Source: a virus
Reading direction: 5' to 3' (one strand)
Virus record (IMG/VR): IMGVR_UViG_3300020281_000001
Coordinates: 1 to 64,000 of that record
DNA length: 64,000 nt
A program made the translations under genes and the position numbers. The notes under the pieces are model-generated. The model saw only the letters and a program-made list of their open reading frames with translations. It was not told the DNA's origin and did no database searches. Each line of letters starts with the position of its first letter. The stretch's first letter is position 1. This document shows, piece after piece, positions 4,776-59,805 of this stretch.

Positions 4776-5924
4776 ATGGCAAACACAAAAATATTAACAC
4801 CGGATTTAATAGATCTTACAGCGGTTAATAATAGCGCTGGTACAGTATTACCAAAAGGACTTACTGCAGGAAGACCTAGCAGTCCTTCTAATGGTGAGTT
4901 TAGATATAATACTACAAATAAATTAATAGAGTTTTATGATGGTGTTCAGTGGGTAGAACTTAGTGATACTATTTATGCTGATAATTTTTTTAATACAGTA
5001 TTATATGGAGGTACAGGTTCTGCTCAATCTATCACAGGAGCAGGTTTTCAACCGGATTTTGTTTGGACAAAAAATTATCTTGCTACTGCTTCTCATTATT
5101 TGTTTGATAGTGTTAGAGGTGTAGGAAAAGAAATTTACTCTGATTTAACCGCTGTTGAGTACACTGATTCTACAACAGTAACTTCTTTTGATTCAGATGG
5201 ATTTAGTGTAGGAACAGGCACTGGTGTTAACAATAGTAGTAACTCTTACGTTGCCTGGCAATGGAAAGCCGGAGGAGCTGCAGTGTCAAATCCAAATGGA
5301 TCTACAAGTTCAACTATATCTGTTAATACAGACTCTCAATTTAGTATAGTTAAAAGCTCAAGTGCAGCAAATTTTTTAGAACTAGGTCATGGTTTAAATG
5401 GTAGACCAGATATGATTTTTGTTAAAAGTCTTACATCTACCGCTTATTGGATGGTTTATCATAGTGCAATAGGTGAAGGAAGAAGATTAAAATTAAATGA
5501 TACAGATGCCGCTACAGCTGACACATACGCTTTTCCTAAGGTAACTAATACAACTTTTAATTTTAATATTAGTAGTTCAAATCAAGAATATATTTGTTAT
5601 TGTTGGAAAGCGGTAACAGGTTATTCTGCTTTTGGTTTTTATACTGGAAATGGTTCAACAACAGGGCCAGTTGTAACAACAGGCTTTGAGCCTGCTTGGG
5701 TATTAATAAAAAATACTGCAGTAGTTAGTGATTGGGCTATATTTGATGATAAAAGAAATACATCTAATCCTCGAGACACGGCACTTTGGCCTAATGATAA
5801 TTTACAGCAAGGTACTTATACGTACGGAATAAACTTTACTGATACAGGTTTTGAAGTTATAGATAGTGATAGTGATTTAAATGGATCAGGTAATCAAATA
5901 GTATATATGGCTTTTGCTAAATAG
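4776..5924 (+). CDS. Fibre/virion protein with repeated aromatic-rich beta domain
   Basis: A 382-residue protein with N terminus MANTKILTPDLIDLTAVNNS, again the M-A-x-T-K docking block. A short GRPSSPSNGEFRYNTT segment and VQWVEL follow, as in many marine phage fibres. The rest holds a two-part beta domain: GFQPDFVWTKN...YVAWQWKAGG and GFEPAWVLIKN...IVYMAFAK, which looks like an internal duplication of a GF-x-P-x-x-V/W-x-x-K unit. It probably forms a distal fibre head. It is the last gene of the rightward fibre run; after it comes a 70-bp A/T-rich gap. Confidence 0.65.
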   Translation: MANTKILTPDLIDLTAVNNSAGTVLPKGLTAGRPSSPSNGEFRYNTTNKLIEFYDGVQWVELSDTIYADNFFNTVLYGGTGSAQSITGAGFQPDFVWTKNYLATASHYLFDSVRGVGKEIYSDLTAVEYTDSTTVTSFDSDGFSVGTGTGVNNSSNSYVAWQWKAGGAAVSNPNGSTSSTISVNTDSQFSIVKSSSAANFLELGHGLNGRPDMIFVKSLTSTAYWMVYHSAIGEGRRLKLNDTDAATADTYAFPKVTNTTFNFNISSSNQEYICYCWKAVTGYSAFGFYTGNGSTTGPVVTTGFEPAWVLIKNTAVVSDWAIFDDKRNTSNPRDTALWPNDNLQQGTYTYGINFTDTGFEVIDSDSDLNGSGNQIVYMAFAK

Positions 5925-6314: not shown

Positions 6315-7877
6315 ATGTCAGACTTAATAGTCAAAAATCTTAATTTTGGGCAGGTAGCTCAAAGTCAAGTATTTAAAGGAATTGATAAACTAACACAAGC
6401 CGTTAGCTCTACTTTAGGAGCTAGCGGTAAATGTGTGTTACTTGAAGATGATCAAGGTAATCCTATAATAACAAAAGATGGTGTTACTGTTGCTAATTCA
6501 ATAACTTTATTAGATCCAGTAGAAAATATGGGCGCAAGGCTTTTAAAAGAAGCTGCACGTAAAACAGTAAATGAAGCTGGTGATGGAACAACAACAGCCA
6601 CCGTTTTAGCTCACGCTATATTAAAAGAAGCAGAAAATTTAGAAATAAATACTAGAGAATTAAAACAAGGTATAAATTCTGCTCTTATAAAAGTATTAAA
6701 ATATTTAGAAAAAAATACTTTACCTGTAAAAGGTGATATGATAGATCAAATAGCTACTATATCTACAAATAATGAACCTAAACTTGGTAAAATAATTGGT
6801 GATGCTTTTAGATCTGTTGGTCAAACAGGTGTTGTAATGATGGAACATTCATCACTTCCTGAAACAAATGTTGATTTAGTTGATGGTGTTCAATATGATA
6901 AAGGTTTAACAAACCAACATTTTATTACAAATAAAGCTAAAAAAACTGCAGAGTTAGAAAAACCTGCTGTTTTACTTATAGAATCACCAGTTGAAAATAT
7001 CAGACAAATACAGTCTGTATTAGAACATGTTATAAAAAAGAACATACCTTTATTAATTATTGCTGATGTAGAAGCGCCTGTCATGGCAACACTTGCTATG
7101 AACAAAACAAAAGGTAATATTAAAGTTAATATTATTAATGCGCCTACATTTGGTGTTAATAAACGTGAAACATTAGATGATTTAGCTATGCTTACTGGAG
7201 CTACTGTCATCAATGAAGATCTTGGAGATGATATGGATTTAATTCAACCTGAATTTTTAGGTAGTTGTTTAAAATCTATAACTAATGAAAAAGATACCAT
7301 AATACAAGTTGGTGAACCAAATGAAGCTGTAACAAAAGCTATTGAAGCAGTAAAAAAAGAACTCGCTAATAAACCTAATCCAGCACATGTAATAAGATTA
7401 GAAAAAAGATTAGCAAGGCTATCAGCTAAAATTGCAGTAGTTAAAGTTGGTGCAAACTCTGATATAGAGTTAAAAGAAAAAGCAGATAGAATAGAAGACG
7501 CAATATGTGCTACAAAAGCAGCTATTAAAGAAGGTATTGTACCTGGTGGTGGTATTGCTTTGCTAAATGCTTCAGAAGAAATTAAAACAAAAAATATAGC
7601 TGAACAAGTACTTTTAAATGCTATAACATATCCTTTTAAAGTTATTTTAAATAATGCTGGTATTGATTGTAAAAGTTTACCTGAATTAATTGGTAAAATA
7701 CAAGGTAGAGGATTAAATGTAGTTACAGGTGAAAATGTAGATATGATTAAAGCTGGAATTATAGACCCATTACTTGTAACAAAAAGTGCTTTAACAAATG
7801 CTGTATCAGTAGCAACAACAATATTATCAACCGATTGTGTAATTAATAACATAAGAACTAATGAAAGCAATAGGTAA
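6315..7877 (+). CDS. groEL: Phage-encoded chaperonin GroEL
   Basis: A 520-residue group I chaperonin. The ATP-site motifs are intact: ITKDGVTVA near residue 55, [11 protein letters not shown] near residue 93, and [22 protein letters not shown] near residue 395, which carries the Asp needed for hydrolysis in bacterial GroEL. The apical domain is divergent, and the C terminus lacks the GGM repeat tail common in cellular GroEL. The protein would form ATP-driven folding rings, presumably for phage proteins such as capsid or fibres. It overlaps groES by 17 bp, so the two are translationally linked. A few large phages encode GroEL; a virus-adapted substrate range is inferred. Confidence 0.95.
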
Positions 7878-53634: not shown

Positions 53635-54387
53635 TTACAAATAATCAAGTACTTGTGAATGATCTACATTTTCTATAAGCTTCTGAACAGCTTGCTTTTT
53701 TATTTCTGAAATTCTAACATAAGCGCTAGTTCCTTCAATTTTAATTTTGCTTGCTATTTCTTTAGCAGAATGTTTATCACAATCAAGGCCATATGATAAT
53801 CTTAAAACTTCATATTCATTTTTACTTAAATGTTTTTGCATTAAGCTTTTTAAATATAAATTTAAAATTACTAAATTATATGGCTCTGATTGGTCAGGTA
53901 TTTGGTAAACCATATCTTCATCGCTGGTTTGTGTTTTAGCATCTATACTTAAAAATATAGAATTAAAAAACATTTCAACCATTTTTTTATCTCGAGGATT
54001 ATTTCTTATCTCATTCATTTTATGCTCTGGTATCCTAATATTTCCTCGGTTTGTATCGATAGCTCTTCTTATACTACCTTTAATTCGTTTAAAGAAAAAA
54101 GATTTTAAAGTTTTTTCTTTATCTTTTGAGTCTTTTAATAAAGTATAATCAAGCTTGTCAACTGCTTTAGTTAATCCAATTGAACCTTCCTGTATAAAAT
54201 CTGTTATATCCATAACGCCTGATGCTTGTTGTGAAGTAGAAAACTTACGTGCTATATTTTCTACTAACGGTAAAAACTTTATTATTAATTCGTCTCTTGT
54301 ATAGTCTAATATATTTTTATTTTTTGTTTGGCTGATCTTAACATCTTGTTTATATCGAATATAATTTTGAACATTATATTTCTTCAT
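53635..54387 (-). CDS. Sigma-70 family RNA polymerase sigma factor
   Basis: A 250-residue sigma factor. Region 2 is clear: LIIKFLPLVENIARKF, DFIQEGSIGLTKAVDKLDYT and a promoter-melting helix RIKGSIRRAID (residues about 30-112). A region 4 HTH lies near the C terminus: LSKNEYEVLRLSYGLDCDKH, SAKEIASKIKIEGTSAYVRI. It would redirect host RNA polymerase to phage promoters, for example the 30-bp repeated sites found at 56.3-60.2 kb or the late genes. It overlaps the HTH gene upstream by 14 bp. A phage sigma of this type is known in some phages; its target here is inferred. Confidence 0.88.
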   Translation of the reverse strand: MKKYNVQNYIRYKQDVKISQTKNKNILDYTRDELIIKFLPLVENIARKFSTSQQASGVMDITDFIQEGSIGLTKAVDKLDYTLLKDSKDKEKTLKSFFFKRIKGSIRRAIDTNRGNIRIPEHKMNEIRNNPRDKKMVEMFFNSIFLSIDAKTQTSDEDMVYQIPDQSEPYNLVILNLYLKSLMQKHLSKNEYEVLRLSYGLDCDKHSAKEIASKIKIEGTSAYVRISEIKKQAVQKLIENVDHSQVLDYL

Positions 54388-56052: not shown

Positions 56053-56125
<73 letters not shown>

Positions 56126-56132
56126 ATATTTT

Positions 56133-56290
56133 GGAGACGAATGAAACAGGAATGATTTCGTGGTCGCGACTATCACTACTTTCTGTTTATATCATCTTTC
56201 CGACCTACAACCTAATTCACTGTGGGCTCACTTCTGAACGAAGTTACATCGCCTCCCTTAGATTATCTACAGCCGTTCCTGACTATCTCC
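56133..56290 (-). ncRNA. Structured RNA of ~158 nt upstream of tRNA-fMet
   Basis: No ORF fits, and the G+C is higher than around it. Perfect complementary blocks nest as follows in genome coordinates: GGAGA 56133-56137 with TCTCC 56286-56290; CAGGAA 56147-56152 with TTCCTG 56276-56281; inside these, GGTCG 56162-56166 with CGACC 56201-56205, and CTGT 56220-56223 with ACAG 56269-56272, GGG 56224-56226 with CCC 56255-56257, ACTTC 56230-56234 with GAAGT 56240-56244. This gives a closing stem and two branches. A 30-bp promoter-like site ends 16 bp upstream. The function is unknown. Confidence 0.6.
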
Positions 56291-56306
56291 ATATTTTTTA
56301 CATTTA

Positions 56307-56336
56307 TATTATCTATTTATCTTCGTATTTACTTTG
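56307..56336 (-). promoter_or_regulatory. Phage promoter-like repeat, site G
   Basis: On the minus strand: CAAAGTAAATACG, 8 bases, TAGATAATA. It overlaps the 3' end of the gene at 56313 and points to the structured RNA and tRNA-fMet 16 bp downstream. Confidence 0.7.
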
Positions 56337-59741: not shown

Positions 59742-59805
59742 TGAGTGAGGTGGGAATCGAACCCACAAATCGCATGTCTGGTCGGCGTGCTCCAAGTGCT
59801 CACTC
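59742..59805 (-). tRNA. tRNA-like gene with shortened D/anticodon part
   Basis: The acceptor stem GAGUGAG/CUCACUC and the T arm GUGGG-UUCGAUU-CCCAC are perfect, and discriminator A follows. Only 32 nt lie between them, about 10 fewer than in a normal tRNA. A partial stem GCACG/CAUGC can form there, but the loop lacks the U33/purine37 context of an anticodon. It is probably a degenerate tRNA or a tRNA-like RNA. Promoter repeat D ends 5 bp upstream of the 5' end. Confidence 0.45.

Follow-up and report, generated by a model that had tools for sequence, protein, structure and literature searches.

We found that the non-coding stretch directly upstream of an initiator tRNA gene near 56 kb of the window (the whole stretch of DNA analysed here, 64,000 nucleotides of a virus record of 65,441 bases) encodes an RNA with a pseudoknotted core, and comparison with related sequences confirms that this is a real structured RNA. 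It belongs to a new class of phage RNAs, the newness lying in the class and in its modular build; the general fact that phages carry RNAs near tRNAs is already known. Our favoured reading is that this new pseudoknotted family probably acts in trans, as a stable scaffold that is freed by RNase P and shows exchangeable cargo, likely as a bait or decoy. The closest terminase to that of the window (62%) comes from a podovirus-like genome from Manatee Spring, followed by those of Flavobacterium, Cellulophaga, Tenacibaculum and Maribacter phages, and because the terminase matches those of flavobacterial phages we infer a flavobacterial host. The Manatee Spring phage (MW202828) was set aside as a source of a relative of the RNA, its genome having no tRNA. 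The window also encodes a GroEL-like protein at 6315-7877, and MW202828 likewise has a GroEL-like gene, plus a GroES-like gene. The genes near 56 kb, the tRNA-fMet and the structured RNA all lie on the minus strand, and the parts of the RNA and its immediate neighbours are given here in 5′ to 3′ order:

56306..56330, minus strand: promoter-like motif AAATACGAAGATAAATAGATAATAT (AAATACGA-N10-ATAATAT), ending 14-15 nt before S1
56132..56291, minus strand: structured RNA, S1 to S1′, limits as set here
56285..56291, minus strand: S1 closing stem, 5′ strand TGGAGAT
56276..56281, minus strand: S2, 5′ strand CAGGAA
56201..56275, minus strand: J insert (CGGCTGTAGATAAT...GTTGTAGGTCG), the variable branch that separates S2 from the core and holds module B
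56216..56257, minus strand: module B, GGGAGGCGATGTAACTTCGTTCAGAAGTGAGCCCACAGTGAA, inside the J insert
56197..56200, minus strand: GAAA joining segment, of which AAA is invariant
56192..56196, minus strand: H3 pseudoknot helix, 5′ strand GATGA
56182..56191, minus strand: invariant loop TATAAACAGA
56153..56181, minus strand: second variable hairpin AAGTAGTGATAGTCGCGACCACGAAATCA
56147..56152, minus strand: S2, 3′ strand TTCCTG
56140..56144, minus strand: H3 pseudoknot helix, 3′ strand TCATT
56132..56138, minus strand: S1 closing stem, 3′ strand GTCTCCA
56053..56125, minus strand: tRNA-fMet, with U1 and C72 mismatched and an anticodon stem containing three G:C pairs

The elements run in the order S1, S2, J branch, AAA, H3, TATAAACAGA, variable hairpin, S2′, two nucleotides, H3′ and S1′, with about 24 invariant positions in the core, and since H3 crosses S2 this core is a pseudoknot. 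An earlier reading, made from the sequence alone, had proposed a two-part closing stem with two internal branches. Both stems lie where it placed them, on the minus strand, and its 5 bp of S1 stand, S1 really being 7 bp with one U-G; the simple closing-stem fold, however, has to give way to the pseudoknot, since the third helix (GATGA/TCATT) had been overlooked, and the branches taken as part of the RNA are in fact exchangeable modules outside the conserved core. The second variable hairpin of the window recurs in the relative L110 and, with two changes, in L047. In L196 and L223 the loop variant GATAAACAGA replaces TATAAACAGA, and these variants also form H3 (GACGG/CCGTC in L223).

Single-sequence folding of the window RNA was unremarkable: the minus-strand minimum free energy (MFE) had z = -0.72, there was no significant folding stability on either strand, and S1 and S2 were absent from the MFE structure because a pseudoknot cannot be predicted by this kind of folding. 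We therefore judged the structure by comparison. For H3, sites were picked by the loop motif and the S2 sequence motifs alone and the helix was then scored at a fixed offset; a perfect 5-bp H3 was present in 25/26 of these sites, in eight different helix sequences (5′ strands GATGA, GACAA, GACAG, GGTGA, GATAG, GGCAG, GGCAA and GGCGA, each with its complement), and the sole site without it, L136, was rejected as coding sequence. The near-identical contig L003 differs within the RNA solely by a T->C change in H3′ (TCATC), which keeps the pair. Across an alignment of 17 distinct cores, standard pairs filled 272/272 cells (79% in shuffled controls; 31-50% with partners slid), the covariation score reached 0.678 (0.246 shuffled; 0.08-0.15 slid) and 10/16 pairs changed on both sides. 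All 5 counted pairs of S1 vary on both sides in these cores, the S1 pair counts leaning toward pairing because the best-pairing register was taken in each sequence; S2 was anchored by its motif and H3 by its fixed offset, and position 2 of S2 and H3 are free of this bias.

Compensation in the two stems, GGAGA/TCTCC and CAGGAA/TTCCTG, was the check that the sequence-only reading had itself put forward, with uncompensated changes at paired positions as the observation that would speak against it. Both helices vary with compensation (S1 to GGAGG/CCTCC, GGAAGTG/CACTTCC and others; S2 to CTGGAA/TTCCAG), and uncompensated change of that kind was not what we saw in the relatives. The window RNA has all the features by which the new family is recognised, namely S1, S2, a crossing H3 with compensatory change and the invariant TATAAACAGA. 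The explanation that there is no structured RNA here, and that chance complementarity within a tRNA leader produced the stems, would sit well with the z value of the single-sequence folding; it is refuted by the compensation of all three helices across divergent contigs from two phage lineages, and we consider its probability negligible.

The RNA had been described as unrecognised, and Rfam 15 indeed gives no match at it, at gathering or permissive thresholds, or at its position in seven relatives, tRNA being the one family reported at or above the gathering threshold. A scan with the primase gene led to 80 loci in related phages; tRNA-fMet lies upstream of primase in 21/47 of the loci listed (most of them with a long upstream flank), and the tRNA-fMet of relatives is preceded by AAAG-NNNN-TATAAACAGA and then TTCC(A/T)G, a sequence that recurs among them. 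Further members came from two scans for patterns in the viral collection, many matches being dropped as coding coincidences without the fold, and about 25 distinct members remained in viral contigs, a count that depends on the motif used and so misses divergent members. Every member comes from a metagenomic contig, and the searches turned up no isolate that carries the RNA. Three candidates from a permissive fold scan (L114, L041 and L031) were AT-rich false positives in which the motif was absent. A nucleotide search of 50,697 phage records with the window RNA returned no match, and HTVC011P and MT837725, weak matches to relatives, do not have the fold. Among 84,980 species genomes there was no host copy and three matches in all, of which two (L184, L185) fail the fold and the third is a compact form found in marine phages. 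Flavobacterium elemo phages were also rejected, as they carry a different tRNA-Met/Ile with other short RNA-like flanks; in one of them (L007, 8510-8800) these non-coding flanks contain possible stems, GGCAGAAT..ATTCTGTC, in sequence unrelated to the window RNA. Among open-licence papers we found none that describes this RNA or phage RNAs built of nested modules.

Members of the family, about 75-260 nt long, occur in two settings: the RNA islands of flavobacterial podovirus-like phages, and, in the compact form, an unrelated marine phage group. The islands consist of tRNAs, tRNA-like RNAs and other RNAs; they are non-coding, lie several kilobases upstream of primase and have a G+C content of about 0.40-0.50 vs about 0.30 in their surroundings. 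Directly downstream of the RNA there is a tRNA-fMet in the window and in L010, L011, L025, L047 and L110, a tRNA-like RNA in L028, L125, L141, L143, L144 and L223, a tRNA with anticodon TCC in L092 and L109, and another RNA module in further members; some relatives sit between a tRNA-fMet and a tRNA-Gly. Adjacency to an initiator tRNA, emphasised in the sequence-only reading, is thus common, being true of the window and about five relatives, but does not define the family, other members adjoining tRNA-like RNAs or mRNA. Two copies of the RNA are present in L047 and single copies in all others. Just upstream of the complete copy in L110 there is a truncated copy of its 5′ part (5620-5690; GGGAAAAGTCTGGAAACC), which is a trace of duplication or recombination.

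The promoter-like site just upstream of the RNA was borne out, at 14-15 nt from S1; the count of seven such sites was not, the relaxed form of the motif (AAATACG-N9/10-ATAATA) occurring five times on the minus strand of the window, upstream of genes (51823, 56330, 58034, 58652 and 60028). The window contains the strict motif twice (expected number 0.00), many relatives have it upstream of genes, and the relaxed motif was found in dozens of them; the phage's own sigma factor (53635-54387) may read it. By inspection, the neighbouring tRNA indeed has the features of an initiator (CAU anticodon, 1:72 mismatch, anticodon stem closed by three G:C pairs), and the RNA ends 6-7 nt before it, in agreement with the 7 nt first given. 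We found no terminator between the two.

The window RNA is the first RNA after the phage promoter motif, and we reasoned that the primary transcript would start just before S1 and continue through tRNA-fMet. A cut by RNase P at the tRNA 5′ end would then free the RNA from the mRNA, a release that established tRNA biology makes plausible, and because there is a promoter upstream, no terminator before the tRNA and tRNA processing to detach the RNA from the mRNA, the freed RNA would act in trans. The pseudoknot core, being fixed while its loops accept arbitrary structured cargo, could serve as a scaffold that resists nucleases, gives the 5′ end its stability and presents the modules as cargo. This cargo would most likely act as a bait or decoy, drawing host factors that bind or cleave RNA; we give the decoy role first place because fast-changing cargo suggests contact with changing host factors. 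Both roles, stabiliser and decoy, are suggested by the architecture. If this account is true, it would provide a new RNA class with a well-supported pseudoknot and show modular evolution of phage RNAs in a concrete form that can be tested. It might also account for the retention of RNA islands around phage tRNA genes, and the RNAs might represent a novel type of anti-defence molecule.

The compact form is about 80 nt long, stands first in an mRNA, without a tRNA, and lies in a recombination/replication cluster whose neighbours include an exonuclease, an Erf-like and an SSB-like gene. One of the contigs that carry it is binned as a gammaproteobacterial MAG. We did not find a terminator between it and the ribosome-binding site that follows. 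The promoter of this setting was identified by eye, and in L138 a sigma-70 scan performed no better than chance. As the compact form has no cargo, the core must have a value of its own that cargo scaffolding leaves unexplained, and the same core might there stabilise the mRNA 5′ end. It is also this setting that speaks for a cis-acting leader, in which the pseudoknot would sense a ligand or protein and regulate the following transcript as a riboswitch-like 5′ UTR: in several marine contigs about 10-25 nt separate the compact form from the downstream ribosome-binding site of an mRNA for a protein of about 85-97 aa, and its pseudoknot, which is H-type-like and has an invariant A-rich loop, is in the general style of small aptamers. 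We nevertheless regard a leader as distinctly improbable for the family, given that a tRNA precedes any mRNA in the window and some five relatives, so that processing would sever the RNA from it, that the downstream neighbour varies between members, and that the paired region of the compact form does not include the Shine-Dalgarno.

A self-cleaving ribozyme that matures the tRNA or divides the transcript could be imagined from the small pseudoknotted core, its roughly 24 invariant positions and the phage tRNA next door. The helix order S1 S2 H3 S2′ H3′ S1′ is presumably not that of HDV, however, J is an additional branch, and nothing corresponds to P1.1; no Rfam ribozyme model, those of HDV type included, matches the RNA. 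The nearest likeness is to the HDV-like theta ribozymes of phages, which also adjoin phage tRNAs (PMC10879173), although the window RNA differs in helix order and the RNAs of the family usually precede the tRNA, some having no tRNA at all, and a ribozyme has on this evidence little chance of being the answer. Phage RNA mimicry of the antitoxin pseudoknot ToxI is established (PMC3475682), and the window RNA, a compact pseudoknot on a phage transcript, might similarly mimic a type III antitoxin and neutralise a host ToxN-like ribonuclease. Against this, it has no tandem-repeat array (L047 alone has two copies), no host copy exists in the species genomes searched, the window neighbours searched contain no match to a toxin family (ToxN/CptN/TenpN), and no Rfam family matches, which counts only as far as Rfam covers type III antitoxins; we rate such mimicry as very unlikely. 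GOLLD and ROOL are structured non-coding RNAs of phages and prophages that occur near tRNAs and are of unknown function, and one of them, GOLLD env-38, comes from a marine sample and lies downstream of a Met-tRNA (PMC12286853). The window RNA is likewise a structured phage RNA near a tRNA. GOLLD and ROOL, however, measure about 650-800+ nt and have Rfam covariance models, none of which matches the RNA; the family studied here, at its much shorter length, falls outside their size range (several hundred nt, ornate, multi-pseudoknot, cage-forming) and has an unrelated pseudoknot core and swappable modules. None of GOLLD, ROOL, the theta ribozymes or the ToxI mimic has the core of the window RNA.

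Two loops of the core, J and the hairpin after TATAAACAGA, take variable inserts of 11 nt to well over 100 nt while the core stays unchanged; in L025, L101 and L092, J is a mere 11-nt GAAA-capped hairpin. The 42-nt module B occurs in four scaffolds, the window RNA and three others: a tRNA-like RNA (L270), another scaffold (L269, L271) and a plain stem before tRNA-fMet (L044, L272, L273). In L047 and L110 a different module, M, stands at B's point of the same branch. Modules are also nested (D(C), E(C), D(E) and a tRNA-like RNA with E(C)), as in A(D(C)) at L028 1200-1380, A(D(V)) at L196 1-210 and, five deep, A(D(E(V(C)))) on the reverse strand of L143 (5717-5960), the module boundaries being set by eye and with regular expressions. 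We know of no other case of module-in-module RNA with the same module on different scaffolds, tRNA-like ones included. The inner helix of module D, at the joint to its cargo, has 91% of cells paired vs 55% with shuffled partners (at most 70% among 2000 shuffles), which means that modules fit structurally at their junctions rather than being joined at random. It thus appears that phages put small RNAs together in the manner of a construction kit. The inserts could instead be selfish hairpin elements that hop into phage RNA loops and are tolerated there without function, which the recurrence of the same modules in several scaffolds and inside each other, and the copy of the element's 5′ part ahead of it in L110, would suit. 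This seems unlikely to us: insertion points match inside stems, helices are continuous and compensated over the junctions, D and E retain long stretches of conserved flank around a changed inner cargo, and no target duplications were noticed in an unsystematic look.

The islands also hold 28 tRNA-like elements that ARAGORN does not call, with a 7-bp acceptor, a T arm and a D-loop-like GG, and with a variable interior, mostly 34-130 nt, instead of normal D and anticodon arms (carriers include L020, L028, L030-L032, L034, L036, L041, L046, L048, L052, L055, L056, L061, L120, L122, L124, L125, L141, L143 and L145, among others). G3:U70, the alanine identity pair, is present in 22/28 of them vs 2/21 ordinary tRNAs, and the tmRNA model of Rfam gives one of them 37.5 bits, short of the threshold of 47. 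It is this sister scaffold, not the window RNA, that resembles the tRNA-like domain of tmRNA, sharing its acceptor stem, T arm, D-loop-like GG and, mostly, G3:U70, but with short modules as its interior and no tag reading frame identified; the elements look like tmRNA-type tRNA-like domains serving as scaffolds for RNA modules. More speculatively, marine flavobacterial phages may combine small RNAs from at least two stable scaffolds (the pseudoknot and an alanine-type tRNA-like minihelix) with modules shuffled between scaffolds and phages, as fast-evolving RNA baits or decoys against their hosts, an extension that we hold to be possible though not yet probable. Several islands (L016-L019, L024-L032, L038, L042 and L065) contain more conserved modules without an Rfam match, for example GTATGTGGTGCC..ACGGAAGTGTATTAC and GCGGCATACTGGTCA..AATACTAGTTAACTACC. 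The window itself has one further element of tRNA-like form:

59742-59805, minus strand: 64-nt tRNA-like element GAGTGAG...CTCACTC, with T arm GTGGGTTCGATTCCCAC

ARAGORN makes no call at this element and its T-arm fragment alone matches Rfam tmRNA (15.5 bits); it directly follows the promoter-like AGATAATATACAC.
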